From NCBI RefSeq assembly GCF_026626705.1, contig NZ_JAPNKC010000001.1:3658001-3722000 (forward strand): a DNA stretch of 64,000 nucleotides. The letters run 5' to 3'. This document shows, in pieces, positions 4,299-28,281 of the stretch. The stretch is from Pyxidicoccus sp. MSG2. GTDB lineage: Bacteria; Myxococcota; Myxococcia; Myxococcales; Myxococcaceae. The first letter of the stretch is position 1. Every line of letters starts with the position of its first letter. The position numbers were made by a program, and so were the translations under genes. The notes under the pieces are model-generated. The model ran no database searches, was not told the origin of the DNA, and saw nothing but the letters and a program-made list of their open reading frames with translations.

Positions 4299-4312
4299 GT
4301 GCGGCAGCGGCC

Positions 4313-7240: not shown

Positions 7241-7291
7241 CCATCGTCTCCTTCCAATACCTGACCTGGGAGGTAACGAGAGCCTACCAAC

Positions 7292-7301
7292 GGCATATCG
7301 G
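7292..7301 (-). promoter_or_regulatory. conserved CCGATATGCC element upstream of paralog 2
   Basis: Same 10-mer as at 4289-4298, 52 nt upstream of the paralog 2 start. The duplicated block ends at the start codon and the leader is unrelated to those of the other two genes, so the match is not simply part of the repeat. Confidence 0.4.
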
Positions 7302-7342
7302 CCACGCGAGCACACCCGCCCGCGTGGCCCTGGAAGACATGC

Positions 7343-12709: not shown

Positions 12710-13654
12710 ATGTCCTCCGCCTCCACAACAGGTCCGGTGAAGCCGGGTGGCCCGCTGAAGGTCGCCCTCGCCTACTGCACCTGCTTCCTGCTGTGGGGCT
12801 CCACGTGGTCGGTGGTGAAGGTGGGCCTCCAGGATTTGCCGCCGCTGCGCTTCGTGGGCATCCGCATGCTGGTGGCGGGATTGGCGCTCCTGCCCTTCGC
12901 CCGCTCCCGCGGCGCACCGCTCGGGCCGGGCATGGGGTGGCGCATCGCGGGACTGGGGCTGTTGCAGATTGGCATTCCCTTCGGCCTGCTCTTCGTCGGG
13001 CAGCAGTGGATTCCCTCGAGCTGGGCGGCGCTCCTCTTCTCCACCTTCCCCATGTGGCTGCTGCTGGTGGGCCGGGTGATGATGCCGGACCAGCACCTCA
13101 CGGGCCGCAAGCTGCTGGCCGCGGGGCTGGGCGTGGCGGGCGTCGCGGCGCTCCAGCACTCCGGCCTGGGCGCGCTGGAGGTGACGGGGCAGATGCTGCT
13201 CGGGTGCCTCCTGTGCCTGGGCTCGGTGGCCGCCATCTCCGTGGCCAACGTGCTGGCCAAGAAGCACATGGGCCAGGTGCCCGCGCACGTGCTGGTGTTC
13301 GGCCAGACGTTCAGCAGCGCGCTCCCGCTGCTCGTGCTGTCGTTCCTGCTGGAGGCGGGACAGCCCTCGCACTGGAACTCGCGCTCGGTGCTCGCCGTGC
13401 TGTACCTCGCGCTGTGCGGCACGGTGCTCACCTACCAGTGCCTCTACTGGCTCCTGCCGCGCATCTCCCTCGCGGCGCTTGGAGCCATGGCGTTGCTGGA
13501 CACGCTGGTGGCGGTGGTGCTGGGCGTGGTGTTCCTCGACGAGCCGCTCACCCTGTCGCTGCTCGTCGGCGGCGCGCTCATCCTCGGCGGGGCCGCGCTC
13601 GCCAACCTCATCCCCGCCGAGGAGCCTTCCGCATCGAAGGCCCCTTCGCGCTGA
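12710..13654 (+). CDS. EamA-family (DMT) exporter
   Basis: A 314-residue inner-membrane protein with ten predicted helices in two EamA repeats (about residues 17-140 and 155-300). Repeat 1 opens with FLLWGSTWSVVKVGL and PPLRFVGIRMLVAG, the RhaT/EamA signature. Repeat 2 ends with LDTLVAVVLGVVFLDEP, the conserved Glu-Pro motif. Such transporters export amino acids, nucleobases or other metabolites; the substrate cannot be read from sequence. It follows ligD by 36 nt on the same strand and converges with a STAS-like gene 4 nt away. Confidence 0.85.
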   Translation: MSSASTTGPVKPGGPLKVALAYCTCFLLWGSTWSVVKVGLQDLPPLRFVGIRMLVAGLALLPFARSRGAPLGPGMGWRIAGLGLLQIGIPFGLLFVGQQWIPSSWAALLFSTFPMWLLLVGRVMMPDQHLTGRKLLAAGLGVAGVAALQHSGLGALEVTGQMLLGCLLCLGSVAAISVANVLAKKHMGQVPAHVLVFGQTFSSALPLLVLSFLLEAGQPSHWNSRSVLAVLYLALCGTVLTYQCLYWLLPRISLAALGAMALLDTLVAVVLGVVFLDEPLTLSLLVGGALILGGAALANLIPAEEPSASKAPSR

Positions 13655-13658
13655 GGAT

Positions 13659-14072
13659 TCAGCCGGCCTGTCGCGCCTGCGCCCCGCGGTGCTGCTCAAT
13701 CCACGCGCGGGCCTGCTCCAGCGTGTCCACGTACACCACGTCCAGCGGCTCGCCGCCGCTCAGCATGGAGCGCACCATGAGGCTCTTGGTGGTGGCCTTC
13801 TGGTCCAGTCCCGCGCCGATGTAGACGATGCCGCGGAACCAGTCCGGCTTCGCGTGGTTCACGAGGTAGCCGCGCGACTCCGGGCTCAGGTGCGAGCCGG
13901 TGATGTCCGCCGCGAGGTAGAAGCGCCCCGACGTGGACATCTCCCGGTACACGGCGCAGGACCACTGCGACGTCTCCAGCGTGACGGCGCCACGGAACTT
14001 CGCCCAGAGGATGTCCGGAGCCTCCACCCACGCCCGCTGCTCACCAAACGCCCACTCTGATTGCCGTGACAT
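13659..14072 (-). CDS. small STAS/SpoIIAA-like protein
   Basis: A 137-residue protein; the ATG at 14072 has a ggag site (aggagtccc) upstream and replaces a longer in-frame extension. The layout is alternating strands and helices: WAKFRGAVTLETSQW, FYLAADITGSHLSPESR, WFRGIVYIGAGL, LDVVYVDTLEQARAWIEQHR. This is the pattern of SpoIIAA-like/STAS single-domain proteins in myxobacteria, often annotated as hypothetical. No phosphorylatable Ser is clearly placed. Cytosolic; function unknown. It lies just downstream of, and on the same strand as, the exported-protein operon (75 nt). Confidence 0.6.
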   Translation of the reverse strand: MSRQSEWAFGEQRAWVEAPDILWAKFRGAVTLETSQWSCAVYREMSTSGRFYLAADITGSHLSPESRGYLVNHAKPDWFRGIVYIGAGLDQKATTKSLMVRSMLSGGEPLDVVYVDTLEQARAWIEQHRGAQARQAG

Positions 14073-14147
14073 GGGACTCCTACGATTTGAACGGAACAAT
14101 ACTAGGGCCGTTCTCACGCGGAGACCAACGGTGTCACGGCAGCCCCG

Positions 14148-17100
14148 TTAGAAGGCGAGCGGAAGGGCGAAGGCCGTGCCGTTCTGCGTGCCGGTGCGGT
14201 AGCTGCGAGGCGCGCCGATGACGAGCATGGGCGGAACTCCGGTGGAACCCGGAATCAGTCCCACGTCTTGTCCGAGAGCACTGCGCTCCGCTCCATCTCC
14301 CACCACCATGAGGAACGGGGAAAGCGCGCCCTGCTGCGTCTTTCCGCCCGCGTAGAGGAACACGGCGCCGCCGCCGTCCGAGGCATCCGACGCGCCCGGC
14401 GCGCCCACCAGCAGGTCCGGCACGCCGTCGCCCGTCAAGTCACGGCCGCCCGCCAGCGAGGTGCCGAAGCTCACCGCGCGCGTGCGGTGCACCAGCGTCA
14501 CCGGCTCCACGCCGTCACTCAGCGCACCAATCACCAGCGGCTGGCCGGCGGACTGCCGGGCGTTCATCTCCGCCAGCAACTCCGCCTTGTCGTAGAGGAG
14601 CACCACCGGCTGCGTGACGCCCTCGAAGGGGATGCTGGTGGCGCTGACGGCCACGAAGTCGCGCGCGTCGTCGAGGAACTTCCCCGCGCGGGTGATGGCC
14701 ACGCCCAGGCCCAGGTTGTTGAGCTGCGATTCAATGTCGCCGGCCAGCCGCAGCACGGTGGCCGTGGTGCGGGCGCCGCAGCGCGTGCCGCCCGTGTCGA
14801 AGCCGAAGAGGATGGCCACGCCGGAGCGCGTGCCCTCCGCGTAGCGCCAGGCCAGCTCATCGCAGTTGTCGCCGTTGAGGTCTTCCAGCGTCGCGGGCGA
14901 GGACGTCTGGAGGCCCATCGACGGCCACGAGTAGACGGGGTCACACCCCATGGTCAGCTTCGCCAGCGTCGCGTCCTCCGGCGCGCGGCCCAGGAACACC
15001 TCCATGCCCCTGTCGCGCAACACGCCGAGGTCCTCCTTGCCGTCGCCGTTGAAGTCGAAGCCGCCCACCAGTCCGCGGCCGATGACGGTGCGCTTGCACT
15101 TCGCGTCCGTGTCCGGCGTGCAGCCCGGAATCAGCGAAGGCGCCCACAGCCGGTAGGCCGGCTTGAAGGTGCCGTCCGCCTGGCCCAGCGACACCAGCAC
15201 GCCGCCCACGGACAGGGTGCCGCTGGTGACACACGCGGCGTTGACGCTGGCGTAGGTGTTGGTCAGCTCCGTGTTGCCGGCCGCCGTGCCCGTGCCCGTG
15301 ACGAAGAAGCTCGGCGCGCCCACCACCAGGTCCTGCCGCCCGTCGCCGTTGAAGTCGGTGAAGGCCACGTCCGTGCCCACGGCGCGGCCCGCCTTGTGCG
15401 GCGAGGGCGCGCCCTCTTCCGCCACGCGGGCCGTGGCCGGCTGCGCCGCGTCGTGCACGTAGGCGCGGCCGATGGACAGCGCATCACCGTCCGTGTTGGA
15501 GCCGGCGCCCGACCAGCCCGGCGCGCCCACCACCGTCAGGGCCTGGTTCTGCGGCCCCCGCGCCACGGCCACTCCCTCGCCGTAGCGCTCCACGCTCGGC
15601 TTCGTCGGCACCATGACGCCGGTGCGCGGCCACTCGGCGAGCGACGCGCCCGCGGGCCGGTACAGCTCCACGCGGCCGGTGAAGGCGCCCTGGTCCGACG
15701 AGGCGCGGCCCGAGAAGGCCACCAGCACCGGGCCGTCCGGCAGCGTCCACGCCGCGAGCCCCGAGCCCAGCGTGTCCGACTTCGCCGTGCCGTTGAGCGT
15801 GGTCAGCGGCTTGTTGATGACGCTGCCCTTGGCGAGCGTGGTCAGCGGATACACCAGCACCTTGCCAATCCAGCGCTGCGCGTTGTTGGCCGCCGTCCCG
15901 GACGCCTTCGGCGCGCCCAGCAGCAGCTCCGGCCCCGCCGAGCCGTCCACGTCCAGCACCGCCCAGCTGCGGCCCGCGTTGATGCCGCCCGCGTCGCCGT
16001 AGATGCGGGCGAAGGCCTCCTCGCGCTTCACCTGCGGGGGCGTGGCCGGCGGCTCGCCCGAGGGCCTGCGGTCGCTCAAGTCGAACAGCAGCGCGCCGCC
16101 CGAGTCACCGCCGGACTTCACACCGCCGCTGGTGCTCAGGTCCGGCGAGTCCAGCAGGTCCGCCACCGCCATCAGCAGCGGTGGCCGCGAGCCCTCTCCC
16201 GGAATGGCGCTCAGCCGCCACGTGCCCTCGTTGCTGTCCGCCGTATTGGCGGGCAGCAGGTACACGTCCGGCGAGGCCCGGAAGCGCGTGCCCTCCGGCC
16301 GCGCGAAGAAGACGGAGATGGCCACCTGCGAGCCCGACACGGAGCCGTCCGTGGCCGAGTAGCGCGACACCTTGCCGAGCGCCGCCAGGTCCACGCGGCC
16401 GTCCCCGTTGAGGTCCGCCGCCACCACCGCGCGCCCCAGGTCCGAGTTGCTGCGCGCCACCAGCGCGCCCTCGCGCGTCAGGTCCGCGCCGCCCAGACGA
16501 ATCGCCGGCAGGTCCGGCACCGGGCTCTTGCTGTCGGAGAGGTACAGGTCCACCGTGCCGCGCCGGTTGATGGCCTGCGTGGGCGCCAGGTCTCCCAGCG
16601 GCGCGCCCGCCACCAGGTCCAGGTCTCCATCCCCGTCCATGTCCGCGACGGACATGCCCGCGCCGAACGCGGCGTCCTTGAGCAGGCCGGTGAGCCCGTC
16701 ACGCAGCGGGGCCGGCGTGCCGCCCTTGAAGGTATAGAAGTACACCGCGCCCGCGTTGCTCACGGCGACGTCCGCGCCCGGCGAGGACACCACGAGCTCC
16801 GCGAGCCCGTCCCCGTCCAGGTCGCCAGCGGCGAGCGCATCACCGAAGGCCGCGGTGTCCGAGCTGCCGGTGAGCACCCACGTGGGCGCCGACGGCAGCC
16901 CTCCCGTGGCGCCCTTGAAGATGAAGACGGCGCCGCCCGCGGGCCGGGACAGGTCGCTCTCGCGCTGGCCCACCGCGAGGTCCTGCGTCCCGTCCCCGTC
17001 GAAGTCCGCCGTCACCATGCTGGCCACGTCCGAGAGGCGGCCATGCGCCACACCCGGGCGCGTCAGCTCGTCCAGCACTCGCACGGACACCTGCGCCGTC

Positions 17101-17882
17101 TGCTTCGTGAAGGGGTCCGTCGCCGTCAGCACCGTCGTGCCGGTGGCGCCCGCCTCCACGGAGAGCCGCCCGTTCGCGAGCGTGCCCGGGCCGGACGTCT
17201 TCGCCCAGCTCACCCGGTCCGTGCCACCGCGCGTGGCCAGCGGCACGGAGGCACCCGCGGGCACCGCGAGGAACGCCGGGTCCCCGACCAGCTTCACTCC
17301 CGCGCGGACCTGGTACTGGAGCAGCGCCTCGTCACCCGTCTGCGAGTCGCGCACGGTGAGCAGGTCATTCCCGTCGCGCGTGCCGGCCGTGTAGACGCCC
17401 TCGGGCGAGAGGGTGGCACCGGAGTCGCTGCGAGTCAGGGTGTACGTGGGCGCTCCCAGCGCGCCGGCCACGGCAACCTGGAACGAGATGCCCGGCGGCA
17501 ATTCAGCGCGCGCGGGGGCCGCGTCGAAGGCGGCCACCACCGACACCCGGGCGCGCGCGTCTCCGGGACACTTCGCATCCTCCACCACCAGCGTGTCGGT
17601 GGCCGGCGTGCGCCCCGCGACGAAGCGGTTGCCGACGAGCGCTCCGGACGAGCCGCCCGGCTCCAGCAGGTAGCGGTAGTGGCCACTGCCGCCGGAGGCC
17701 ACCAGCGCCACCGGGCCGGACACGCGCACGCGCGCGGGCTCCGCGGTGAGGGTGAGCGCCGGCAGGCCCGTGCACAGGTCCACCGTGGGCGGCAACGGAA
17801 TCACGCGCGCGGGCTCCAGCTCTTCCGAGCACGCGGAGGCGAGGAGCGCGAGGAGGGGGGCCGCGCGGGTCAGTCGAATCAT
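14148..17882 (-). CDS. large FG-GAP beta-propeller lipoprotein
   Basis: A 1244-residue exported protein with a signal ending LLASACSEE (lipobox-like, Cys18). Residues about 35-300 are Ig-like or bacterial beta-sandwich repeats (SGGSGHYRYLLEPGG type). The rest holds about nine FG-GAP/VCBS calcium-binding motifs, such as DFDGDGTQDLAVGQ, DLDGDGLAELVVSSPG, DMDGDGDLDLVAGAP, DFNGDGRQDLVVGAP and DLTGDGVPDLLVGAP, the blades of an integrin-alpha-like propeller. It is the last gene of a five-gene operon, 36 nt after the cytochrome-like lipoprotein. Expected on the cell surface as a binding or adhesion module; partner unknown. Confidence 0.82.
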   Translation of the reverse strand: MIRLTRAAPLLALLASACSEELEPARVIPLPPTVDLCTGLPALTLTAEPARVRVSGPVALVASGGSGHYRYLLEPGGSSGALVGNRFVAGRTPATDTLVVEDAKCPGDARARVSVVAAFDAAPARAELPPGISFQVAVAGALGAPTYTLTRSDSGATLSPEGVYTAGTRDGNDLLTVRDSQTGDEALLQYQVRAGVKLVGDPAFLAVPAGASVPLATRGGTDRVSWAKTSGPGTLANGRLSVEAGATGTTVLTATDPFTKQTAQVSVRVLDELTRPGVAHGRLSDVASMVTADFDGDGTQDLAVGQRESDLSRPAGGAVFIFKGATGGLPSAPTWVLTGSSDTAAFGDALAAGDLDGDGLAELVVSSPGADVAVSNAGAVYFYTFKGGTPAPLRDGLTGLLKDAAFGAGMSVADMDGDGDLDLVAGAPLGDLAPTQAINRRGTVDLYLSDSKSPVPDLPAIRLGGADLTREGALVARSNSDLGRAVVAADLNGDGRVDLAALGKVSRYSATDGSVSGSQVAISVFFARPEGTRFRASPDVYLLPANTADSNEGTWRLSAIPGEGSRPPLLMAVADLLDSPDLSTSGGVKSGGDSGGALLFDLSDRRPSGEPPATPPQVKREEAFARIYGDAGGINAGRSWAVLDVDGSAGPELLLGAPKASGTAANNAQRWIGKVLVYPLTTLAKGSVINKPLTTLNGTAKSDTLGSGLAAWTLPDGPVLVAFSGRASSDQGAFTGRVELYRPAGASLAEWPRTGVMVPTKPSVERYGEGVAVARGPQNQALTVVGAPGWSGAGSNTDGDALSIGRAYVHDAAQPATARVAEEGAPSPHKAGRAVGTDVAFTDFNGDGRQDLVVGAPSFFVTGTGTAAGNTELTNTYASVNAACVTSGTLSVGGVLVSLGQADGTFKPAYRLWAPSLIPGCTPDTDAKCKRTVIGRGLVGGFDFNGDGKEDLGVLRDRGMEVFLGRAPEDATLAKLTMGCDPVYSWPSMGLQTSSPATLEDLNGDNCDELAWRYAEGTRSGVAILFGFDTGGTRCGARTTATVLRLAGDIESQLNNLGLGVAITRAGKFLDDARDFVAVSATSIPFEGVTQPVVLLYDKAELLAEMNARQSAGQPLVIGALSDGVEPVTLVHRTRAVSFGTSLAGGRDLTGDGVPDLLVGAPGASDASDGGGAVFLYAGGKTQQGALSPFLMVVGDGAERSALGQDVGLIPGSTGVPPMLVIGAPRSYRTGTQNGTAFALPLAF

Positions 17883-17918
17883 GTTCAGGTGCCTCGAAGA
17901 GGGGGTGCGGCCGGAGCT

Positions 17919-19442
17919 TCAGGGCAGCGCGCCGGACGCGGCCCAGCGCTGGATGCGGGTGATGAGCTGCGGGTCCAGGGGCCCGTCGGCGGGCATGCGC
18001 TTGTCGCGCACGGCGGCGGTGATGAGGGCCGCGTTCGCCTTCCACAACTGGTAGGTGTTGAGCGGCCGGCCCGGGCTGGTGGTGTGGCACTTCGCGCAGC
18101 GCGACTCGTGGATGGGGCGGATGTCCGCCTGCCAGCCGAGCGCCGCCGTGGCGAGGGGCTGATACTCGAAGGGCACGGTGCGCTTCGCCTCCGTGCCGTC
18201 CGCGAAGCGCGCGACGACGGCCAGCGCGTGACGCCCGGCCTCCAGGCCCGCCAGCGAGTACGCCTTGGGCGTGCCGTCCGACTCCGAGCCGCCCAGGCTG
18301 TACTGCGGACCCGACGTCGGCACGTCATTGCCGTCGACCTGGAAGACGAGGCTCTCCGGAGGCGCGCCCGGAGGGAGCACCGCGTGCGCCACCAGCCCGT
18401 CCTCCACCACCTGCATGCCCTGGTACAGCCCGGACACGCGAGGCACCGGCGCGCGGCTCACCGCCACCGACTGGCCGCCCAGCTGCACCCACGCGGTGCC
18501 GGCCTCGTCCGCGGCGAGGAAGCGGAACTCACGCGTGTCCAGGTCCGTGGCCACGCCCCAGGTGTTCGCATCCGCGTCGAAGACGAGCAGCGCGTCGCTG
18601 GACTTCACCCAGAGGAAGCGGCCCGAGGCGAGCAACTGCACCGGCCGCTCGCCCAGGTCCACGCGGCGCCAGCCCGAGTTCGCCCGGCGCAGCAGGCCCT
18701 GGTTGGTGAGCAGCCACAGCTCACCGGAGGTGCCCACCGCCGGGCCCAGGCCCGCGAGCGACTCCACCACCTCGCCCTCGTCGAGCGGCGCACTGGCCTC
18801 GCGCACCTGGTACGTGGTGGCGCCAGTGGCCACCGCCACGTTCAGCGTGCCGTCGCGGAGGAACCAGACGCCGGGCGAGCCGTCCGCCGCCGGTGCCGCC
18901 GCCAGCGCGGTGATGCCGGTGATGGGGCTGCCGCCCACCTTCAGCGCGGCCAGCGTGCCTTCCTGCAGGCGGTATAGGCCGCTGGTGTGCGCGAGCCAGC
19001 CCGCGCCGTCCGCGGACTGCGCGGTGGCGGTGACACCCGCGCCCAGCGCGTCGCGCCACGGCGGGGCGATGAGCCAGCCGGACTCCGCGACGAAGAGGCC
19101 GTTCTGCGCCTCCACCACCGCGCTGTGCGGCCCCATCCGGAAGACGCCTTTCACGGTGCCCGCGGCCACCGTGTTGCCCGGGTGCGGCTCCAGTGCGCCA
19201 AGCGAGCCGTCCAGCCGCAGCCGCACGAGCGAGCCCGAGGCGGTGGCGAAGACGCCTCCGCCGGCCTGGTCGGCGAAGCCCGGCGTAGAGGCCAGCTCCG
19301 CGTTCGCCGGGACTTCCGTCGGACGGAAGGCCGTGGGCTTCGGCCGGTCCAGCGGGAGGGAGTCCTCCCCGCACGCGCTCAGCAGCGCGGCGGAGAGGAG
19401 GAGGGAGACGACGGAGGAAGAAGCCCTCGGATGTGGACTCAT
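17919..19442 (-). CDS. surface lipoprotein with C-terminal c-type haem motif
   Basis: A 507-residue lipoprotein (lipobox LLSACGE). Residues about 45-340 read as a beta-propeller-like sensor of two-component/kelch style, with repeated short strands such as GVFATASGSLVRL and GELWLLTNQGLLRR. A beta-sandwich region about 345-425 follows, then a C-terminal segment IRPIHESRCAKCHTTSPGRPLNTYQLW with a single CxxCH haem-attachment motif and RMPADGPLDPQLITRIQRW, typical of planctomycete and myxobacterial cytochrome-c-like tails. It is the fourth gene of the operon, 12 nt after the DUF1501 gene. Haem attachment is inferred from the motif only. Confidence 0.78.
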   Translation of the reverse strand: MSPHPRASSSVVSLLLSAALLSACGEDSLPLDRPKPTAFRPTEVPANAELASTPGFADQAGGGVFATASGSLVRLRLDGSLGALEPHPGNTVAAGTVKGVFRMGPHSAVVEAQNGLFVAESGWLIAPPWRDALGAGVTATAQSADGAGWLAHTSGLYRLQEGTLAALKVGGSPITGITALAAAPAADGSPGVWFLRDGTLNVAVATGATTYQVREASAPLDEGEVVESLAGLGPAVGTSGELWLLTNQGLLRRANSGWRRVDLGERPVQLLASGRFLWVKSSDALLVFDADANTWGVATDLDTREFRFLAADEAGTAWVQLGGQSVAVSRAPVPRVSGLYQGMQVVEDGLVAHAVLPPGAPPESLVFQVDGNDVPTSGPQYSLGGSESDGTPKAYSLAGLEAGRHALAVVARFADGTEAKRTVPFEYQPLATAALGWQADIRPIHESRCAKCHTTSPGRPLNTYQLWKANAALITAAVRDKRMPADGPLDPQLITRIQRWAASGALP

Positions 19443-19454
19443 GCGGATGACGGC

Positions 19455-20867
19455 TCAGGCGAGGATGGGACGCAGCGGGTCCACGCGGGTGATGCTGTAG
19501 TCGAGGCCCGCCGAGGCGAGCACCGTGGCGATGATGTGCTCGGGGAAGATGTTGGAGCCGTTCGGGTCCGCGGCGCCGGTGCGCAGGTCGAACGTGCCCG
19601 GCGACATGCCGATGTCGCCGCTCTTGCCAAAGACCTGGTTGTGCTTGATGCCCGCGCCCATGAGGAGGGCGGAGCTGCACAGGTGGTGGTCTCTTCCGCC
19701 GGAGGCATTGATGAGCGGCGTGCGGGCGAACTCGGAGAACACCATGATGGTGGTGTGGTCCATGAAGTTACCACCCGACGGGTGCGGGCTGGCGCGCAGG
19801 TCGTCCACCAGGCTGGCGAGCGCGTCGAAGCCGCGGCGCTGGTTGCTGGCGTGGGTGAGCTGGGTGCCGAAGTGCGTGTCCAGGCCGCCCGTGAGGTTGA
19901 TGGTGACGCACTGGGCGATGCCCTTCTTCAGCGCGGTGGCCACCGTCGCGGCGCGGCCCGCCTCGTTGTCGATGGAGCCCGTGGTGGCCAGGCCGTAGCG
20001 CGTGCGCACCGCCTCCATCTCCGGGTTGGTGGTGTCCTGGAACTGGAAGGCCTTCTCCAGCCCCTGTGACAGCACCTGCTGCATCTGGTCCCGGCTGTTG
20101 GAGTAGGTGGTGCCCACGCCGCGCGTGCCGTACGCCGCCTGCTCGCAGTTGATGGGCTGGCCGCGGAAGTCCACGAGCTGCTTCTCGATTTCGCTGTCCA
20201 ACTGCTGGCTGGCCGCGCTGGGCCGCAGCGTGAGGAGCAGGTCATCCCGGCGGCTGACGCGCAGCGCGTTGGCGTAGCCCCCGTAGCGGTCGTTGTACGA
20301 CTCGACGTTGTAGGAGATGGACGCGATGGGCACCCGCGGCTTCATCTGACCGACGATTTCCGTCGCCGTGGAGGAGCCGCGCGCGGCGCTGCCGATGGGG
20401 AGCTTGCCGGTGAGGAAGTACCGGTAGCCCACCTCGTGGCCCAGCGTGTTCATGTTGATGCCGCGCACCACCGTCATCAGGTCGTAGTGCGACGCCAGCC
20501 GCTCGCCCACCGCGGGCCCGAAGTCGATGTTGGGCCGGCCCGCGCCGGAGCGCTCGGCCGGGAGGATGGGGCGCGTGGAGAAGCGCGAGTCGTTGATGAG
20601 GTTGTAGCCGGGGAGGATTTTCGTCTCCGACGCGCGGTCGGCGGTGAACTCGTCCGGGTCTCTCGGGTCGAAGGCGAGGAGCTGGTCCCAGCCGCCGCTG
20701 AAGTACACGAAGACGAAGCACCGGTCCGCTGGGGCCAGCTCCGCGGCCTGGGCGAAGGCGCGGAAGGGAATCCCGCCCAGCAGCGTGGAGCCCATGAAAC
20801 CGGCGGCGGCCTTGAGGAAGGTGCGGCGCTCGGGGAGGACGTTCTCGTCGCGGTTGTTCTTCTTCAT
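19455..20867 (-). CDS. Tat-exported DUF1501 protein
   Basis: A 470-residue protein. The ATG at 20867 gives MKKNNRDENVLPERRTFLKA, a clear Tat signal (RRTFLK), followed by a hydrophobic stretch and AFAQAA. The body carries DUF1501 hallmarks: VFVYFSGGWDQLLAFDPRD, TVVRGINMNTLGHEVGYRYFLTG, GGLDTHFGTQ, MVFSEFARTP and GRDHHLCSSALLMG. DUF1501 proteins are related to sulfatase/alkaline-phosphatase folds and are usually encoded beside DUF1592/DUF1800-type haem proteins, as here. Folded export by Tat suggests a bound cofactor or metal. The in-frame upstream extension to 21014 overlaps the previous gene and is rejected. Confidence 0.85.
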   Translation of the reverse strand: MKKNNRDENVLPERRTFLKAAAGFMGSTLLGGIPFRAFAQAAELAPADRCFVFVYFSGGWDQLLAFDPRDPDEFTADRASETKILPGYNLINDSRFSTRPILPAERSGAGRPNIDFGPAVGERLASHYDLMTVVRGINMNTLGHEVGYRYFLTGKLPIGSAARGSSTATEIVGQMKPRVPIASISYNVESYNDRYGGYANALRVSRRDDLLLTLRPSAASQQLDSEIEKQLVDFRGQPINCEQAAYGTRGVGTTYSNSRDQMQQVLSQGLEKAFQFQDTTNPEMEAVRTRYGLATTGSIDNEAGRAATVATALKKGIAQCVTINLTGGLDTHFGTQLTHASNQRRGFDALASLVDDLRASPHPSGGNFMDHTTIMVFSEFARTPLINASGGRDHHLCSSALLMGAGIKHNQVFGKSGDIGMSPGTFDLRTGAADPNGSNIFPEHIIATVLASAGLDYSITRVDPLRPILA

Positions 20868-20884
20868 CGCAGGCTCTCCCAAGC

Positions 20885-21580
20885 TCAATACGTGATGAAG
20901 CGCGGGTCGGTCAGCATGGCGATACACACCAACGCCAGGACCTGGTCCCGCTTCTTCGTGGTGCCCGCCAGCGTCTCCACCCGCGTCGCCGCCTGGGTGA
21001 AGAGGCCCACCCACTTCGTCAGCTCGTCGCCCGCCAGCGGCGAGCCCCAGAAGCGCGTGGAGTTGTAGACGAGGTACTCGCGCACCTGCGCGTCGGTGAG
21101 CTTGCGCAAATCATCCCACTTGCCGGGCAGCGTGCGGCTGAGCGTGCGCAGCGCGGGGTCCGCCTGCGCGATTTCCGCCTTGGACTGCTCCAGGCAGACG
21201 TAGCGCGCGCCGTCCTCCAGGAACTTGGCGAAGACGAGGTTGGGCTCGGTGTTCTCGCTGGAGACGAGCGCGTAGTCCGCGCGGCCCAACGACGGGGCAC
21301 GCACGTCGATGCCGTCACGGCCGTCCGCCGTCAGCCAGCGGCGGCCCACCGCGGTGAGGATGGCGGCGTCCAGCTGGGACACGGTGAGCCGGCGCGGGGC
21401 GCGGCCCACGCTGCCGCCCTGGGCCTCGGGGTCCGGCAGCGGCTCGTAGTTGTCGTTGGTGTGGGGATTGGGGACGGGCTCGAGCTGGCCATCCAGGGGC
21501 GGAGGCGTGGCCTTCTCCTCCGACTTCTGGCAGCCGGAGGCCAGCGCGAGCAGCGCGGCGGTCAGGACAAGGCGGCGCAT
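20885..21580 (-). CDS. small lipoprotein of the DUF1592/DUF1501 operon
   Basis: A 231-residue lipoprotein (MRRLVLTAALLALASGC, Cys17), with a Pro-rich linker to about residue 60 and then a helical domain starting RRLTVSQLDAAIL. The C-terminal pattern LVYNSTRFWGSPL...DQVLALVCIAMLTDPRFITY resembles the end of DUF1800/DUF1585-type helical domains that close planctomycete-style surface proteins. It begins one base after the stop of the upstream haem protein and ends 17 nt before the DUF1501 start, so it is translationally linked to both. No enzyme motif seen. Confidence 0.75.
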   Translation of the reverse strand: MRRLVLTAALLALASGCQKSEEKATPPPLDGQLEPVPNPHTNDNYEPLPDPEAQGGSVGRAPRRLTVSQLDAAILTAVGRRWLTADGRDGIDVRAPSLGRADYALVSSENTEPNLVFAKFLEDGARYVCLEQSKAEIAQADPALRTLSRTLPGKWDDLRKLTDAQVREYLVYNSTRFWGSPLAGDELTKWVGLFTQAATRVETLAGTTKKRDQVLALVCIAMLTDPRFITY

Positions 21581-23596
21581 TTAATCAATCCTCCGGTAGG
21601 CGTCCGTCGTCACCACCCGCTCGATGAGCGACTTGAGCTTGTGGCCGCTCTTCGCGAAGTCCTGCGACAGCGGCGTCAGGTACATGCGCTGCTCCTCGGT
21701 CGTCATGGGCCGGCCGAGGAACTCGTTCCAGATGCGCTTCACCGTGCAGCGCTCCAAATCACCCGTCTGCAGCATGCGCTGGACGAGCAACTGGGGGCCG
21801 GCCTCGATGTTCTGCTCCTCGTCGGCCGTGCGGTAGAGGTACGTCTTGAGCATGCCCAGGCTGTTGGCGCCGTCGCCGTCATACGCCTGCATGACGTACT
21901 GGCCGCACTCGCCGCCGCAGTTGGTGTCGCCGTTGAGGGCGCAGTCGCGGCACTTGGGGTCGAAGCGGGGGAACTGGTCCCCAGGGAGGAACTGGGCGGC
22001 GCGCTCGGCGTAGCGGCCCCAGTGCGCGCCGGTGGGTTCAATCGTCGCGTGGCAGTAGTTGCAGCCGCAGCGCACCGCGAGGTTGTTCTGCCGGTTGCAG
22101 GAGTCCTCGGGGGGAGGCAGCGAGGCGTCCGCCGGCGGGGAGAACGTCTTGCAGAGGAAGGCCTCGTAGAACTCGTTCACCCGCGCGCGCTGGGTGGGGA
22201 AGCGGTAGAGGAAGGCGGGGGTGGTGAGGACGCCCGCGTGCTGCGCGTCGCGCGTGTACTCCACCCAGGCGCCGTTCTCCTCGTAGGGGATGGCGGGGAT
22301 GGTCTGCGCGTCCGCGGGGGACGTCACGCTGAAGACGCCCACGCCCTGCTTCTGCCGGTAGTACTCGGCCAGGGTGCCGTTCACGAAGGAGCGGCGGGTG
22401 GTGAGGATGTTGAAGTAGGGCTCGTCGCGCTTCACCACCGACTCGGCGATGCGCAGCGGCTCCTCGTTGAAGGCGGCCACGCGCATGTCGTGCACGGAGC
22501 GGACACCCTGGGCCGTAATCGCGTTCACCTCGCAGCGGCGCAGGCGGTCCCCGCAGCCGCAACTGCGGTCACTGGCGAAGCGCGCCGCCTCGCACGAGGC
22601 CATGGTCCACGGGTTCTGCGCGCGGTCCTGCGCTTCAATCGCACACACCTTGACGGACGCGGGCGTGGTGGCCGTGGCCCAGTACGGCGGCTTCGCGGTC
22701 ATCACATAGCCCTCGCGCTGGACGCAGCCGCGGCGCGGGGCGTAGTTGCCCTTCACGTTGTCCTTCAGCTCCAGGTCCAGCGTGCAGCGCTTGAGGTCCG
22801 TCAGCGTGGGCTTGGAGGGGATGTTCGGGTGCTCGAAGGCGGTGACGCGGCCGCTGGCGTCCGTCACCTCCACCGTCAGCGCGGCGGTGGTGCTCTTGCC
22901 CGGGTCCGGCAGGCAGAGGAACGAGTCCATGGCGGCCCCGCGCCTGTCACAGAAGTACGTGTACTTCTTCCAGGTGGCGTTGGCGGCCAGGTCGGCGCAC
23001 GTGCTCACCGCGTTGCTCGTCGCGGTGGCCAGCGCCGTGCACTTGTAGAAGTTGGTGTCGTAGTCGAAGGACACGGGCATGGGCACGCCCATGTCGTCCC
23101 GGCACTTGAGCACCTTCTCGCGCAGGGGCGCCGCGTGCGCGTCCGGCTGCGTCGCGGTGAGGCAGGCGTCCTGTTCAATGGCGGAGTCACACCCGGCGCC
23201 GTTGACGCCGCGCAGCCCGGTGGAGCTGTTGTTGCCGAAGAAGAGGATGCTGTCGGCGGCGCCCGAGCCGTTCAGGCGCGAGTTGCCGTTGTCGAAGACG
23301 CTCGCGGAGAGGTTCGAGCGGAGCAGCGCCCGGTGGTAGTTGCGGATGCGGGCGTAGAACTCGTCCTTGCCCATCATCGCGCGGATGTCCTCCACGTCGA
23401 CGGAGCCCTTGGCCTGGGCGGCCTTGTACTCCTCATAGCTGGGGGGGCGGCCGAGCAGGTCCAACGACAGCTGACGGAGGTGCCGCTCCAGGGGCACCTT
23501 CGCGACGGGCGCACAGACGGCTTCTTCAGCGGAAGCCGGCAGGGCCAGAAGGAAGGCGGCGCCAGCCAGGGCGGCGAGGCAACGCACACGGTCCAA
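21581..23596 (-). CDS. exported DUF1592/1588/1585-type haem protein
   Basis: A 671-residue exported protein. I choose a TTG at 23596 because ggagg lies 6 nt upstream and the resulting MLDRVRCLAALAGAAFLLALPASAEE is a clean signal peptide; a GTG at 23632 lacks a spaced site. Mature region: LERHLRQLSLDLLGRPPSYEEY (PSD1/DUF1587-like helix), many Cys residues (about 25), DUF1588-like CNYCHATIEPTG with a CxxCH haem site near 490, and a C-terminal DUF1585-like helix region (FLGRPMTTEEQRMYL). First gene of the five-gene operon. Such proteins occur in planctomycetes and myxobacteria beside DUF1501 genes; activity is not established. Confidence 0.78.
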   Translation of the reverse strand: MDRVRCLAALAGAAFLLALPASAEEAVCAPVAKVPLERHLRQLSLDLLGRPPSYEEYKAAQAKGSVDVEDIRAMMGKDEFYARIRNYHRALLRSNLSASVFDNGNSRLNGSGAADSILFFGNNSSTGLRGVNGAGCDSAIEQDACLTATQPDAHAAPLREKVLKCRDDMGVPMPVSFDYDTNFYKCTALATATSNAVSTCADLAANATWKKYTYFCDRRGAAMDSFLCLPDPGKSTTAALTVEVTDASGRVTAFEHPNIPSKPTLTDLKRCTLDLELKDNVKGNYAPRRGCVQREGYVMTAKPPYWATATTPASVKVCAIEAQDRAQNPWTMASCEAARFASDRSCGCGDRLRRCEVNAITAQGVRSVHDMRVAAFNEEPLRIAESVVKRDEPYFNILTTRRSFVNGTLAEYYRQKQGVGVFSVTSPADAQTIPAIPYEENGAWVEYTRDAQHAGVLTTPAFLYRFPTQRARVNEFYEAFLCKTFSPPADASLPPPEDSCNRQNNLAVRCGCNYCHATIEPTGAHWGRYAERAAQFLPGDQFPRFDPKCRDCALNGDTNCGGECGQYVMQAYDGDGANSLGMLKTYLYRTADEEQNIEAGPQLLVQRMLQTGDLERCTVKRIWNEFLGRPMTTEEQRMYLTPLSQDFAKSGHKLKSLIERVVTTDAYRRID

Positions 23597-23637
23597 GAGG
23601 GACCTCCGAGAGGGGGGGTCGGGGGTGACCACTTCCG

Positions 23638-23667
23638 AGTATGCTGGGTTTCCCTGTTGAAGATCAA
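23638..23667 (-). promoter_or_regulatory. possible sigma-70 promoter of the DUF1592/DUF1501 operon
   Basis: On the minus strand TTGATC (23667-23662) and CATACT (23643-23638) match -35 and -10 consensus at four of six bases each, with an 18-bp spacer. Transcription would start near 23631, leaving a leader of about 35 nt to the TTG start. This fits the chosen start and argues against the GTG at 23632. Confidence 0.3.
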
Positions 23668-23768
23668 ACGACGGTGCAACAAATCCTCATGCGACATGTA
23701 TGAGCAGGTCGTTCCTGCAAGGCGGTGGCGGTTGCAACGGGGTGGGCGTCGCGAGAGATAGGGGACTC

Positions 23769-24329
23769 ATGTCGAACGCCGCCCCCGCTGCCCTTCCCTC
23801 TCGCGTGAGTGACAGGACCTTCTTCGCCTTCACGGCGGTGGTGTCCGTGGCCGCGCTGTCGTTCCTCGCCTGGCTGCTGCTGGTGCGGCGCGGGGGCGCG
23901 GGGGGCGTGGATCTGCGCTTCCTGCCGGCGGTCAACGCGGGGCTCAACGCGACGGCGGCGGCGCTGCTCATCGCCGGGTGGGTGGCGGTGAAGCGCGGAG
24001 CCAGGAAGGTGCACCAGTACCTGATGGTGTCCGCCTTCGTGGCGTCGTCCCTGTTCCTGGTGTGCTACCTGGCCTACCACTACGCGCACGGCAGCACGCG
24101 CTACGTGGGGGACTGGCGCGGGCTGTACCTGGCCATCCTGGCGAGCCACGTGCTGCTGTCCATGCCGGTGGTGCCCATGGCGCTGGTGTCCTTCTACTTC
24201 GCGTGGCGCAAGGAGTTCACCCGGCACCGCAAGGTGACGCGGTGGCTGGCGCCCATCTGGGTGTACGTGTCGGTGACGGGCGTCGTCGTCTTCTTCATGC
24301 TCCGCGGCAGCGTGCCCGCGGTGCCGTAG
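23769..24329 (+). CDS. DUF420 membrane protein
   Basis: A 186-residue inner-membrane protein starting at the ATG at 23769; a longer in-frame extension to 23700 overlaps the divergent promoter region. Five hydrophobic helices are visible. The conserved pieces NAGLNATAAALLIAGWVAVKRG, ARKVHQYLM (His) and LAYHYAHGSTRY (two His) are typical of DUF420/CtaM-like proteins linked to cytochrome oxidase assembly in other bacteria. No oxidase genes are nearby. It is divergent from the exported haem-protein operon and converges with the phytochrome operon, 9 nt from its last stop. Confidence 0.75.
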   Translation: MSNAAPAALPSRVSDRTFFAFTAVVSVAALSFLAWLLLVRRGGAGGVDLRFLPAVNAGLNATAAALLIAGWVAVKRGARKVHQYLMVSAFVASSLFLVCYLAYHYAHGSTRYVGDWRGLYLAILASHVLLSMPVVPMALVSFYFAWRKEFTRHRKVTRWLAPIWVYVSVTGVVVFFMLRGSVPAVP

Positions 24330-24338
24330 GGCGCGCGC

Positions 24339-25553
24339 TCACCGGGAGTTCGCGGACGAGGAGCCCTCGCCGGCTTCGGCGTCCGCCCCCTGCGCTCGCG
24401 CCGGCTCCGCGCTGTCGGGCATGCCACGCGGCAGGCGCACGATGAAGGTGGTGCCACGGCCCTCCTGGCTCTCCACCTGGATGGTGCCCCCGTGCAGTTC
24501 CACCATGCGGCGCGCGCTGGCCAGTCCCACCCCGCTGCCGGAGACGTCCCGGGACACGTTGCGCCCGCGCCGGAAGCGCTCGAAGACATGGGGCAGGTCC
24601 TCGGCGGGAATGCCGATGCCCTCGTCGGACACCTCCAGCCGCACCCCGTTCGACGGGTTGCCCCGCTCCTCTGCCAGCATCACCGTGACGGTGGTGCCGG
24701 GGGCGCTGTACTTCACCGCGTTGCCCAGCAGGTTCTCCAGCACGCGCTCCAGGGCGCGGGCGTCCCAGTGGCCGGTGAGGTCCCCGCCCTCCTCGTTCAG
24801 GATGAAGCGGTGCCGGGCGGACGCCTCCAGCGCGTGCACCTTGGAACCCACCAGCGCGCGCAAATCCAGGCGTTCGCGGCGCAGCGGCTGCTCCTGGCCG
24901 CGCGTCGCCTCCAGGAAGTGGTCGATGAGCTCGCCCATGCGGTACGCGGCGCGGACGATGTGGTCCAACCGCGACTCCTGCGTGGGCTTGAGGGTGCCCT
25001 CGGGGAACTGGCGGCGCAGCACCTGGGCATTGAGGGCGATGATTTGAATGGGCCCCTTGAGGTCGTGCGTGGCCAGGGCGAACAGCTCGTCGCGCACGGC
25101 CAGCGCCTCCTGGGCGGCCCGCTCCGCGCGCTCGGCGCGCACGCGGCGGTCCTCCAATTCGCGCGTCATGCGCACCGTGTCCACCGCGCCCCGGAGGCTG
25201 CGGCGCAGGCGCTCCGCGCTGTAGGCGTCCTTGATGAGGTAGTCCTGCGCGCCCGCCTTCATCGCATCCACCGCGACGCGCTCGCTGCCGCTGCCGGTGA
25301 GCACCACCACCGCGGGGGCCGCCCCCGGGTAGCGCGCGTGCAGCTCTCGCAGCAGGCCCAGGCCCGTCATGCCCGGCAGGTGGTAGTCCACCAGCATGAC
25401 GTCCGGCGGCGCGGCGGCGATGCGCGCCAGGGCCTCCTCCGCGGACATGACGGACTCCAGCAGCCAGGTCGCATCCGGGTCGCGCTCCAGGGCGCGGCGC
25501 ACGGCAAGCCGGTCTGAGGGACTGTCGTCCACCAGCAGCACGCGAAGGCTCAT
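24339..25553 (-). CDS. response regulator-histidine kinase hybrid (REC-HisKA-HATPase)
   Basis: A 404-residue protein with the receiver domain first: phospho-acceptor Asp56 in MLVDYHLPG, Thr in VVLTGSGSE, Lys in YLIKDA. A coiled linker (about 125-165) leads to HisKA with ALATHDLKGPI near 175, then HATPase_c motifs ENLLGNAVKYSAPG, DEGIGIP, FERFRRG and GSGVGLASARRMV. Receiver-first kinases typically take phosphate from another protein and act as a second relay stage. The start at 25553 overlaps the stop of the response regulator gene by 4 nt (ATGA), so it belongs to the phytochrome operon. No transmembrane segment; cytosolic. Confidence 0.85.
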   Translation of the reverse strand: MSLRVLLVDDSPSDRLAVRRALERDPDATWLLESVMSAEEALARIAAAPPDVMLVDYHLPGMTGLGLLRELHARYPGAAPAVVVLTGSGSERVAVDAMKAGAQDYLIKDAYSAERLRRSLRGAVDTVRMTRELEDRRVRAERAERAAQEALAVRDELFALATHDLKGPIQIIALNAQVLRRQFPEGTLKPTQESRLDHIVRAAYRMGELIDHFLEATRGQEQPLRRERLDLRALVGSKVHALEASARHRFILNEEGGDLTGHWDARALERVLENLLGNAVKYSAPGTTVTVMLAEERGNPSNGVRLEVSDEGIGIPAEDLPHVFERFRRGRNVSRDVSGSGVGLASARRMVELHGGTIQVESQEGRGTTFIVRLPRGMPDSAEPARAQGADAEAGEGSSSANSR

Positions 25554-25996
25554 GTCGGTGAGTCCTCCGGGCCCGGCAGCCGCGCCGCGGCGAGCCAGAA
25601 GGACTGGAGCGCGCGCGCGGCGGCCTCCAACTGCTCGCCGGGCTCCGGCTTGAAGAGGTAGCTGTTGGCGCCGTCCGCGTAGGCGCCCTCCACGTCCTGC
25701 CGCTCCGTCGAGCTGGAGAAGATGATGACGGGGATGCAGCGCAGCACCGGGTCCGCCTTGAGGCGGGACAGCACCTCGCGGCCGCCCATGCCCGGCATGT
25801 GCAAATCCAACAGGACCAGCGCCGGCCGCGTGGCCCCGGCGTAGCCGCCGCGCTGGTAGAGGTAGTCCAGCGCGCTCTCGCCATCCCTCAGGCGCACCAG
25901 GGGCAGCGGGAGGGGAAGCCGCCGGGCGATGCGCTCGAGCGCCACCGCGTCCGCGTCGCTGTCCTCCACGAGGAGGAGGGGCCGCCGCTCCGTCAT
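25550..25996 (-). CDS. single-domain response regulator (Rcp1-type)
   Basis: A 148-residue receiver domain with acidic pair ED (11-12), phospho-acceptor Asp64 in LVLLDLHMPG, switch Ser in FSSSTE and Lys in YLFKPE. There is no output domain. Its sequence style (LRDGESALDYLYQRG) is that of Rcp1-like partners of bacterial phytochromes. It overlaps bphP by 4 nt and the REC-kinase gene by 4 nt, so all three are translationally coupled. It probably takes phosphate from the phytochrome kinase and may pass it on. Confidence 0.87.
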   Translation of the reverse strand: MTERRPLLLVEDSDADAVALERIARRLPLPLPLVRLRDGESALDYLYQRGGYAGATRPALVLLDLHMPGMGGREVLSRLKADPVLRCIPVIIFSSSTERQDVEGAYADGANSYLFKPEPGEQLEAAARALQSFWLAAARLPGPEDSPT

Positions 25997-28281
25997 TCCG
26001 CCCCCCGGCCGAGCGTGAAGTAGAAGGTGGAGCCCTGCCCCGGCGCGGAGTCCACCCACAGCTCGCCGCCGTGCAGCCGCACCAGCCGGCGCGCAATCGC
26101 GAGCCCCGCGCCGGAGCCTCCGCCATACGCCTGCGCGGGGTGCAGCCGTCGGAACATCTCGAAGATGGTCTCGTGGAACTGCGGAGCGATGCCGATGCCC
26201 GGGTCTTTCACATAGAAAACGTAGGGCGCACCCGGACGGTCCGCCGGGCCGGGCCTGGATTCCCCCGGTCCGAAGTAGCCCAGCTCCACCCAGTGCGGCT
26301 CGGCTGCCTGGTACTTGGCCGCGTTGGAGATGAGATTGGCCCACACCTGATGAATGCGGACGGCGTCGCAGGAGACGCGAGGCAGGCGGCGCGGCAGGCG
26401 CACCTCGGCACGCCCCTCCCGCAGGCGCGCGGAGAGGGTGATGAGCACCTCGTCCACCAGCTCCTGCATGTCCGTCTCGCCCCAGGCCAATTCCAGGCGG
26501 CCGAGACGGCTGAACTCGAAGAGGTCTTCCAGCATCGCCTGGGCGCGGCGGGCGAGCCACCCCACCGCATGGAGGTGCTCGCGGCCCTCCGCGTCCAGTG
26601 TGGCCTCGTGGTCCTCCAGGAAGAAGGCCGTGTACTGCTGGATGCCGCGCAGCGGCTCCTTGAGGTCGTGCCCCACGGTGCCGCTGAAGGACTCCAGCTC
26701 CTCATTGGAGCGGGCCAGGGCGCGCGACAGGCGGGACAGCTCCGCCGCGTGACGCAGCACCACGCCCGCGAGCGCGCCGCGGAAGGACTCCGCCGCCTCC
26801 ACGTCCGCGGCCGTCCACGGGGTGCTCGCGCCGCGCACCTCTTCGCGCCACGCGTCGAAGGAGGCGCGAGGGTGCAGCCGCGCATGGCCGGCCTCGGGCT
26901 CCGCGGGCTTGCGCGGATTGCCCGCCCAGGTGACGGTGCGCGCCACTTCCGGGCGGAACCAGAGGGCGAAGCGCGGGGCCTCGGGGTCCAACCGCACCGC
27001 GAGCAGGCCCGCGGCCACGTCCGCGCTCGCGGCCAGCGGTGTGTACCGCGTGCCCAGGCGCTCGGTGTGGAAGGTAGCGCCCATGCCAAAGTCCTTCGCG
27101 AGCCACGCGGCCAGGGCCCGCACCTCGGCCTCGCCGGGCGTCTTCCCGAAGAGGAGGGGTGCTTCTCCCGCATCCCTGTCCGCGTGCGCCCCCGACTCGA
27201 GGACGTCGCCGAGCAGCAGCGCCGCGCCGGAGGCGCCGGTCAGCTCCAGCAGCAGCGCGCCGTTCGCCTCCAGCGCGACGGGGAGCGAGGGGCCCTCGCC
27301 CAGTCGGGTGACGAGCTGGCCCTGGAGGCCCGCGCGGCGGGCGCGCGAGACAGCCTCCGCGCCGCGCTCCTCGGCGCCGAGCTGGAGGGCCAGCAGCCGC
27401 GCGAGCACCTCGCACGCCTGGCGCCGGGCGGCGGACACGTGGCGCGGCGAGAGGTGGTGGCAGGCGATGAGGCCCCACAGCGCGCCGTCCTTCAGCAACG
27501 ACACGGAGAAGGACGCGCCCACGCCCATGTTGCGCAGGTACTCCAGGTGCACCTCGGACACGCTGCGCAGGGCGGCGCCGGACAGGTCGAGCGGGCGCTG
27601 CGTGTCCGGCAGCGTGGGTGGCACCAGCGCCACCGGACGCGCCGCCGCATCCGCGATGAGGCGCAGCGGGTTGCGCGTGTAGAGGGCGCGGGCCTGGACG
27701 GGGATGTCGGTCGCGGGGAAGTGCATCCCCATGAAGCTGTCCACACCCTCGCCGCGGCTCTCGGCCACCACCTCGCCGTGCCAGTCTGCGTGGAAGCGGT
27801 ACACCATGACGCGGTCGAAGCCGATGAGCGCGCGCACCGCGTCCGCGGTGGACTGGAGGAGCGAGGACGTGCCCCGCGCGAGCCCCAGGGGCGACACCAG
27901 CCGGTGCACGGCGTCGAGCGCGTCCTCGTCCGCCCTCGCGTCAGCCGTGAGGGGCTCCAATTCCAGCACCGTGAGGCCGTCACTGTCGTGCAGCAGCGCG
28001 GAGCAGGGGCGGTCTCCCGCCTTCACGCGCACGGGCCCGGAGGCGGTGCCGGCGCGCACGCGCCGCAGCGAGTCCGCGTCCAGCACGCGCGTGACGGACT
28101 GGCCTCGCAGCGCGGCGGGTGACAGGCCGAACAGCGCTTCCACGTTGGCGCTCACCACCGCCACGGTGAGGTCGGACTCTCGGAAGGCCAGCAGCACGCC
28201 GTGCGGCTGCACTCCGCCGAGCAGGTGGATGGGCTCCCTGTCGCACTGGGTGAGGTCCAGCTCAGGTGCGGGAAGAGGCAT
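25993..28281 (-). CDS. bphP: bacteriophytochrome histidine kinase
   Basis: A 762-residue red/far-red photoreceptor kinase. The biliverdin-attaching Cys13 is in the N-terminal TQCDREPIHL. A PAS domain (about 10-115) holds IHLLGGVQPHG. The GAF domain (about 140-310) has FPATDIPVQAR (the usual PASDIP motif with Thr for Ser) and CHHLSPR. The PHY domain (about 320-500) has the tongue pieces WFRPEVARTVTW and PRASF. HisKA has His538 in VGHDLKEPLRG; HATPase_c motifs NLISNAAKY, DPGIGI and GGGSGAGLAIARRLV follow. All photosensory and kinase residues look intact. It lies after the haem oxygenase gene that would supply biliverdin, and the frames overlap. Confidence 0.92.
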   Translation of the reverse strand: MPLPAPELDLTQCDREPIHLLGGVQPHGVLLAFRESDLTVAVVSANVEALFGLSPAALRGQSVTRVLDADSLRRVRAGTASGPVRVKAGDRPCSALLHDSDGLTVLELEPLTADARADEDALDAVHRLVSPLGLARGTSSLLQSTADAVRALIGFDRVMVYRFHADWHGEVVAESRGEGVDSFMGMHFPATDIPVQARALYTRNPLRLIADAAARPVALVPPTLPDTQRPLDLSGAALRSVSEVHLEYLRNMGVGASFSVSLLKDGALWGLIACHHLSPRHVSAARRQACEVLARLLALQLGAEERGAEAVSRARRAGLQGQLVTRLGEGPSLPVALEANGALLLELTGASGAALLLGDVLESGAHADRDAGEAPLLFGKTPGEAEVRALAAWLAKDFGMGATFHTERLGTRYTPLAASADVAAGLLAVRLDPEAPRFALWFRPEVARTVTWAGNPRKPAEPEAGHARLHPRASFDAWREEVRGASTPWTAADVEAAESFRGALAGVVLRHAAELSRLSRALARSNEELESFSGTVGHDLKEPLRGIQQYTAFFLEDHEATLDAEGREHLHAVGWLARRAQAMLEDLFEFSRLGRLELAWGETDMQELVDEVLITLSARLREGRAEVRLPRRLPRVSCDAVRIHQVWANLISNAAKYQAAEPHWVELGYFGPGESRPGPADRPGAPYVFYVKDPGIGIAPQFHETIFEMFRRLHPAQAYGGGSGAGLAIARRLVRLHGGELWVDSAPGQGSTFYFTLGRGAE

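Follow-up and report, generated by a model that had tools for sequence, protein, structure and literature searches.

Organisation of the locus

We analysed a 64,000-nucleotide (nt) stretch of the genome of Pyxidicoccus sp. MSG2 (contig NZ_JAPNKC010000001.1), called the window here, and in it a set of five genes for exported proteins, designated A to E. The genes are five head-to-tail open reading frames (ORFs) on the minus strand, which occupy 14148-23596 in the order A-B-C-D-E (Table 1), and the gaps between them are 0 nt (A/B), 17 nt (B/C), 12 nt (C/D) and 36 nt (D/E). A first-pass annotation, made from the letters of the window, had described five genes with gaps of 0-36 nt, among them a DUF1592/1588/1585-like haem protein and a twin-arginine translocation (Tat)-exported DUF1501 protein, with two haem sites in the set. 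All five ORFs were found on the minus strand with this spacing, and by the matches given below the haem protein corresponds to A, the DUF1501 protein to C, and the two predicted haem attachment sites to A and D. A search of NCBIfam gave no useful name for any of the five proteins.

Table 1. Features of the five-gene locus and its divergent neighbour (window coordinates).
Feature	Position	Strand	Description
Gene A	21581..23596	-	Exported PSD-type haem protein (PSCyt2/PSD4/PSCyt3/PSD2-like), 671 amino acids, TTG start, Sec-type signal peptide
CNYCH motif of A	22049..22063	-	Haem c sequence motif, residues 512-516
Gene B	20885..21580	-	Lipoprotein, 231 amino acids, weak PSD5/DUF1595 match at the C-terminus
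Gene C	19455..20867	-	Tat-exported DUF1501 protein, 470 amino acids, ATG at 20867, predicted alkaline-phosphatase-type fold
RRTFLK motif of C	20811..20828	-	Twin-arginine sequence motif
Gene D	17919..19442	-	Lipoprotein, 507 amino acids, propeller-like N-part, C-terminal cytochrome c domain
CAKCH motif of D	18084..18098	-	Haem c motif, residues 449-453; ligand-like Met483-Pro484 30 residues downstream
Gene E	14148..17882	-	FG-GAP (integrin-alpha-like) lipoprotein, 1244 amino acids, six DxDxDG-type calcium motifs
DUF420 gene	23769..24329	+	CtaM-like membrane protein, divergent neighbour; Pfam 7.3e-41 using the longer ORF from 23700

B, D and E each carry a lipobox, and in the Myxococcaceae loci a relaxed form of the pattern was detected in 76/77 B, 74/76 D and 71/71 E sequences, the misses including one contig-truncated sequence and one with a doubtful start. 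Because genes for cytochrome c assembly (three PF01578 matches) and for TatC are present in the genome, haem attachment and Tat export are both possible. For gene A, GGAGG precedes the TTG at 23596, and GGAGG followed by a TTG or GTG start was found in 23 of 24 aligned upstream regions (the window and 23 chosen loci; the exception is L092). The TTG at 23596 was therefore preferred over the GTG at 23632 as the start codon. A plus-strand ORF of 1569 codons at 14268-18977, antisense to E and D, was considered as a gene and taken to be an artefact of high guanine-cytosine content.

The haem protein A and the lipoprotein B

The Pfam scan was run on the window proteins, and the comparison with family cut-offs is given for A. 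In hmmscan, A stayed below threshold for PSD2/DUF1585 (23.0 bits; cut-off 25.8), PSD4/DUF1592 (20.5; 23.3) and PSCyt3/DUF1588 (15.1; 27), and in the whole-genome search the A locus reached 26.2 bits for PSD2, above the cut-off of 25.8. Among 29 aligned relatives of A, matches at E ≤ 0.01 were obtained to PSD2 in 28, to PSCyt2 in 21 (best 5.8e-10), to PSD4 in 17 and to PSCyt3 in 4, and no PSD5 appeared among the Pfam matches listed for A. PSCyt and PSD domains are found together on one exported chain in A. The CxxCH motif was present in all 172 aligned Myxococcaceae and distant proteins and in 11/11 relatives from a second cassette described below. Twenty-three cysteines were invariant in the 29 relatives, 21 of them non-haem. 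In one alignment of A (A6), the six Myxococcaceae rows share a stretch of some 150 residues that is rich in cysteine and absent from the 14 other rows, and the invariant His and Met residues of that alignment are limited to the CxxCH histidine and the start methionine. A possible second haem ligand, His88, was conserved in 75/75 Myxococcaceae and 84/97 distant rows and in 0/11 rows of the second cassette. The predicted structure of A had a predicted local distance difference test (pLDDT) score of 69.6, and the sequence profile of A, searched against the PDB, returned nothing at E ≤ 10.

At E ≤ 0.1, 16 of 29 members of the B family gave a weak C-terminal match to PSD5 (DUF1595), with 1.5e-4 as the best value. 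In the typical PSCyt/PSD arrangement, which is not a formal criterion, the PSD5 part lies on the same chain as the others. From this weak signal, the planctomycete-type PSD protein appears to be split here, with B as its separated PSD5 part.

The DUF1501 protein C

C matched DUF1501 in Pfam with an E-value of 3.2e-26, and both arginines of its twin-arginine motif were conserved in 164/164 aligned Myxococcaceae and distant proteins. When residues are counted from the ATG at 20867, D61, H144, D330 and H332 were invariant in the same 164 proteins; T141 was found in 162/164, E379 in 159/161 (Asp in the other two) and H394 in 161/161, three rows being gapped at the last two positions. Searched against the PDB, the sequence profile of C gave no match at E ≤ 1 and just two chance-level ones. 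When the predicted structure was realigned at the residue level with 844 chains, 376 of them reached Z ≥ 8, with a best Z of 14.1 (root-mean-square deviation 3.9, 243 aligned, residues 45-471), and the top structural matches were sulfatases, nucleotide pyrophosphatases (NPPs) and PafA. As far as a model of only fair quality can tell, C matches the fold of the alkaline phosphatase (AP) superfamily. In the model, D61 follows the first strand and T141-H144 the next one, and D330-H332, S378-E379 and H394 stand beside later strands. Judged by residue order and secondary structure against what is known of the superfamily, rather than by superposed coordinates, the way in which strands and conserved residues follow one another agrees with an AP superfamily metal site.

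The lipoproteins D and E

The CxxCH histidine of D was conserved in 147 of 149 aligned rows and Met483 in 146 of 149, and this combination of CxxCH with a downstream Met predicts a class I-like cytochrome c. In Pfam, the tail of D matched Cytochrome_CBB3 in 24/28 members and PccH in 19/28 (best 1.3e-3), all at E ≤ 0.1, and in the PDB it matched the cytochrome c 4rlr (E 0.001). The N-terminal part matched 3v9f, the periplasmic chain of a hybrid sensor kinase (E 1.6e-4). E matched Pfam FG-GAP at 2.1e-45 over 8 stretches and integrin alpha chains with a best E-value of 7.7e-18 (integrin alpha-5), and its repeats with calcium loops are those predicted of an FG-GAP/integrin-alpha propeller. In L212, L172, L174, L193, L195, L197 and L199, two E-type FG-GAP matches lie side by side, possibly through gene doubling or an assembly frame break.

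Conservation in the Myxococcaceae

In addition to the window, 77 Myxococcaceae loci were fetched, and all five genes lie on one strand in the order A-B-C-D-E in 69 of them. Seven of the eight remaining loci end at a contig edge, and L089 is without D and E with no apparent cause; no D was found in the 2,498 bases past its C gene. In searches of 96 Myxococcaceae genomes, C matched 92, E 87 and A 86, tallies that include distant paralogues. Our own count from the profile search gives an A orthologue in 81/96 genomes, namely the 84 matched at E ≤ 1e-10 minus G052, G053 and G093, where a fragment or the second set is present. The gene order is not absolute in these bacteria, because L240, whose record is titled Myxococcaceae, has A-B-C-E-D.

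Distant loci and co-inheritance

In a search of the phylum, the A profile matched 10 of 99 genomes outside the Myxococcaceae. A scan of a genome collection gave 178 relatives, of which 80 were retained, so that it does not confine the genes to Myxococcota; their titles are mostly Myxococcales, Myxococcota, Sandaracinaceae, Deltaproteobacteria, Proteobacteria or plain bacterium, with one titled Rhodobacterales (L203) and one from a cultured species, Paraliomyxa miuraensis. The distant loci were selected through A and several come from the same genome; removal of nine duplicate contigs reduced them from 103 to 94. The residue conservation counts given above exclude these duplicates and rows below set length limits, and the duplicates were likewise dropped before the flank clusters and distance correlations given below. 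The commonest patterns in the 103 loci were DABC (31), EDABC (21) and ABC (20).

Of the 94 distant loci, 92 contain B, 88 contain C, 75 contain D and 39 contain E. The 57 loci with at least 5 kilobases (kb) upstream and at least 3 kb downstream hold B in 57, C in 57, D in 48, E in 28 and all five genes in 25. From these counts, A-B-C is the core, D is usual and E is frequent. The arrangements are shuffled, mostly to D-A-B-C, with D before A or after C and E often divergent (E is encoded opposite to the other genes in 24 loci and in their direction in 5). Gene content thus outlasts arrangement, since the distant loci keep the genes mostly in another order. The first-pass annotation had taken the five genes as one unit, which agrees with the ordered set in 69/77 Myxococcaceae loci and with the content of the distant loci; single genes scattered among relatives, the result that it had named as fatal to this idea, are the opposite of what was observed. 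As to its suggested check of gene set and order across the Myxococcales, the content was kept, whereas the order is not universal and E is the least constant member.

In Mantel tests, the pairwise distances of A correlated with the B distances at r 0.84 (90 loci), with the C distances at 0.90 (85), with the D distances at 0.75 (73) and with the E distances at 0.89 (38; p 0.001 each), and permutations reached ≤ 0.28. A correlation of this kind among the distances of A-E would be as expected for joint inheritance. Candidates for an extra constant partner in the distant loci were rejected, as each of four flank clusters occurs in just 5-14 of the 94. In L155 (G053:C381:1-7552), one C gene is flanked by two A-type genes.

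A second DUF1501 cassette

A second PSD/DUF1501-like set was found in 11 loci, L241-L251, from ten Myxococcaceae genomes and more. In the genome of strain MSG2 itself (L241, G000:C1:11019000-11027000), it consists of three genes at 2681-7148, which encode an A-like protein, a CxxCH lipoprotein with a B-like tail and a DUF1501 protein. The second cassette resembles the five-gene set in having an A-like gene, a C-like gene and a lipoprotein with CxxCH and a B-like C-terminus, and it differs in having three genes, with the cytochrome motif and the B-like tail on one chain. The B profile reached the C-terminus of this lipoprotein in 10/11 loci, weakly (E 4.5e-4 to 0.11), and hhalign of B against the L241 lipoprotein gave 83.6% (E 8.2e-6). 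The position of D61 in the C-like protein is Arg in 9/11, with one Asp and one gap. Compared at the level of sequence, the second cassette gives modest support to the suggestion that A, B and a cytochrome domain belong together.

The cytochrome domain of D was rejected as a proven homologue of that in the second cassette, because hhalign gave 3% and the CxxCH motif alone is common to both. In L248, the cytochrome motif precedes the A-like part. This protein was rejected as a full D-A-B fusion, hhalign giving 94.5% for the A part, 5.7% for the cytochrome part (motif only) and 0.9% for the B part.

Neighbouring genes

The DUF420 gene was found in 71 of the 77 Myxococcaceae loci, is divergent in all 71, and is not counted in the gene set. 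The strip between A and DUF420 (23597-23768) contains conserved blocks, TGCAAC and TGCATACT, which could serve the two divergent genes as promoters; a consensus promoter scan of 13600-24400 found none, and terminator predictions in the same range were at chance level only. Upstream of the gene set, the minus strand at 24339-28281 encodes a phytochrome histidine kinase and, next to it, a hybrid kinase that has a receiver domain. They were rejected as members, being missing from many Myxococcaceae loci that retain the set. Elsewhere in the window, an RND efflux pump (48126-51272, plus strand), a multicopper oxidase (53891-55915, plus strand) and a cupredoxin-domain protein (61458-62984, minus strand) lie within 15 kb, perhaps as a copper-handling region, and the ORF at 5771-7315 (minus strand) gave a ChaN/Tiki-type haem-binding match (Cofac_haem_bdg, 6.4e-8).

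Proposed function and alternatives

The gene content, the export signals, the haem motifs and the metal-site-like residues of C can be read directly in the sequences, and the AP-type fold of C is predicted from its model. We consider it quite possible, short of probable, that the products of the five genes make up a single exported module of the envelope, corresponding to the planctomycete-type PSCyt/PSD-DUF1501 pair in split form. In this reading, C would act as the hydrolase and A as the oxidising protein, D would accept the electrons, the three lipoproteins would serve as anchors, and a polymer would be held by the propellers. The complex, its substrate and its electron path, as we infer them, would be as follows. 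The lipoproteins B, D and E would anchor the assembly at the outer membrane, and the integrin-like propeller of E and the propeller-like part of D would bind a polymer outside the cell or in the periplasm. C, a putative metal enzyme of the AP superfamily exported in the folded state by Tat, would remove a charged ester group or otherwise hydrolyse the substrate. A, a predicted disulfide-rich monohaem protein in which no further His or Met ligand is conserved throughout, may oxidise the exposed substrate, and the electron would move to the His/Met cytochrome c domain of D and then to the respiratory chain. A bolder form of this proposal, which we regard as doubtful, is an oxidative-hydrolytic machine of a new kind: A would be a haem c enzyme whose sixth position is open or weakly closed, acting with the AP-fold protein C on the same polymer, with E holding it at the cell surface and D as the built-in electron outlet, and predatory bacteria would use the machine to degrade polymers of the prey or matrix.

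Several observations weigh against the envelope module. The model of C has a mean pLDDT of 61.6, with residues 150-268 mostly below 50, and Foldseek with this model gave no match at E ≤ 0.001 (best 0.01, a sulfatase). The usual alkaline phosphatase site has Asp-His as second-position metal ligands, and C reads Ser-Glu at this place, so that its hydrolase activity is uncertain. The model of A had no match to a solved fold (Foldseek, none at E ≤ 0.001; VIA, best Z 4.4); this structure search leaves the fold of A open rather than marking it as new. His88 could close the haem of A; in that case, plain electron transfer would be a better explanation than oxidation. Of the 57 well-flanked distant loci, 29 lack E and 9 lack D, and therefore neither is indispensable. 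In addition, shared descent alone can produce the distance correlation.

The alternative of an electron-transfer module is unlikely, with a modest chance of being correct. A and D would shuttle electrons between the periplasm and an acceptor outside the cell or in the envelope, and C and E would only shape or anchor the module. The two conserved haem motifs, the ligand-like Met of D and the resemblance of its tail to PccH are consistent with this role, as is the DUF420/CtaM gene with its constant divergent position. CtaM, a DUF420 protein, is described in PMC9145763 as needed for heme A oxidases, which ties it to the haem-copper oxidases. However, the window proteins A and D contain a single CxxCH apiece, unlike the multihaem proteins of a porin-cytochrome conduit; the set has no multihaem protein, and no porin family was among the Pfam matches of the five window proteins, a comparison that covered these five and not the four recurrent flank clusters of the distant loci. 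The DUF420 gene is a neighbour at the level of the Myxococcaceae and was not among the recurrent distant neighbours, although that listing did not target it, and the conserved site residues of C would be left unexplained.

Rather improbable is a surface recognition or adhesion complex, in which prey, kin or matrix would be bound by the FG-GAP propeller and the redox state would be sensed by the haem proteins. The integrin-like E with its six calcium-type motifs, and the phytochrome and hybrid kinases upstream in the window, would suit such a complex. On the other hand, A-B-C stays in the well-flanked distant loci from which E is absent, and the kinases are missing from many Myxococcaceae loci that keep the five genes. 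We give an equally small chance to a role in envelope maturation or as a scaffold, with C as a non-catalytic AP-fold protein and structural haems. Part of the AP site of C deviates from the standard residues, and the 21 invariant non-haem cysteines suggest that A is a rigid structural protein, but the near-absolute conservation of D61, T141, H144, D330, H332, E379 and H394 in C, across 164 sequences, argues against a non-catalytic protein. That the genes form no functional unit, being unrelated exported genes retained by chance or by simple common descent, is hardly credible: descent could account for the distance correlations taken alone, but the content was retained despite changes of order and strand, with D before A or after C and E divergent or downstream, and this strongly disfavours it.

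Comparison with known systems

Planctomycetes and verrucomicrobia have many PSCyt/PSD and DUF1501 proteins. According to He et al. 2017 (PMC5615132), the PSCyt genes with PSD domains in Verrucomicrobia usually stand beside one of two gene families of unknown kind, some of the PSCyt proteins carry carbohydrate-binding modules, and nothing is known about the function of PSCyt genes. A faint pointer to respiration comes from a design study (PMC7789669), which lists DUF1587, 1588, 1592 and 1595 among the domains from a comparison aimed at Pseudomonas anaerobic respiration. In the library of open-licence papers that was searched, we found no functional study and no paper that deals with the present genes as a set or with these DUFs in Myxococcus. 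The two gene families beside the Verrucomicrobia PSCyt genes are reportedly DUF1501 and DUF1552. The gene set of the window resembles the planctomycete and Verrucomicrobia genes in that A has PSCyt2, PSD4, PSCyt3 and PSD2-like parts with CxxCH and is accompanied by a DUF1501 gene: C lies beside B and A in the Myxococcaceae, and in 88/94 distant loci. The relation to planctomycete-type pairs that had been suggested for the locus is thereby upheld. The differences are that two genes there stand against four or five here, that the PSD5-like part is separate (B), that D bears an extra cytochrome domain, and that an FG-GAP lipoprotein is often added.

Two single components also have known counterparts. 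D resembles the PccH-type monohaem cytochromes c in its tail (4rlr, E 0.001; PccH in 19/28 members), in a match that is short and weak, and differs from them as a lipoprotein with a large propeller-like N-part. C resembles the AP superfamily (sulfatases, NPPs, PafA) in its modelled fold, with Z up to 14.1, and in the predicted placement of conserved Asp, Thr, His, Asp-His, Glu and His after the expected strands; it differs in giving no PDB sequence match at E ≤ 1 and in having Ser-Glu for Asp-His. Because the parts lie on separate genes in cultivable myxobacteria (81/96 Myxococcaceae genomes), each can be deleted or purified alone, and a long-open question on a widespread haem protein family would become directly testable. 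Compared with these systems, what is new here is that the known PSCyt/PSD-DUF1501 parts are divided differently among genes, with added lipoproteins.

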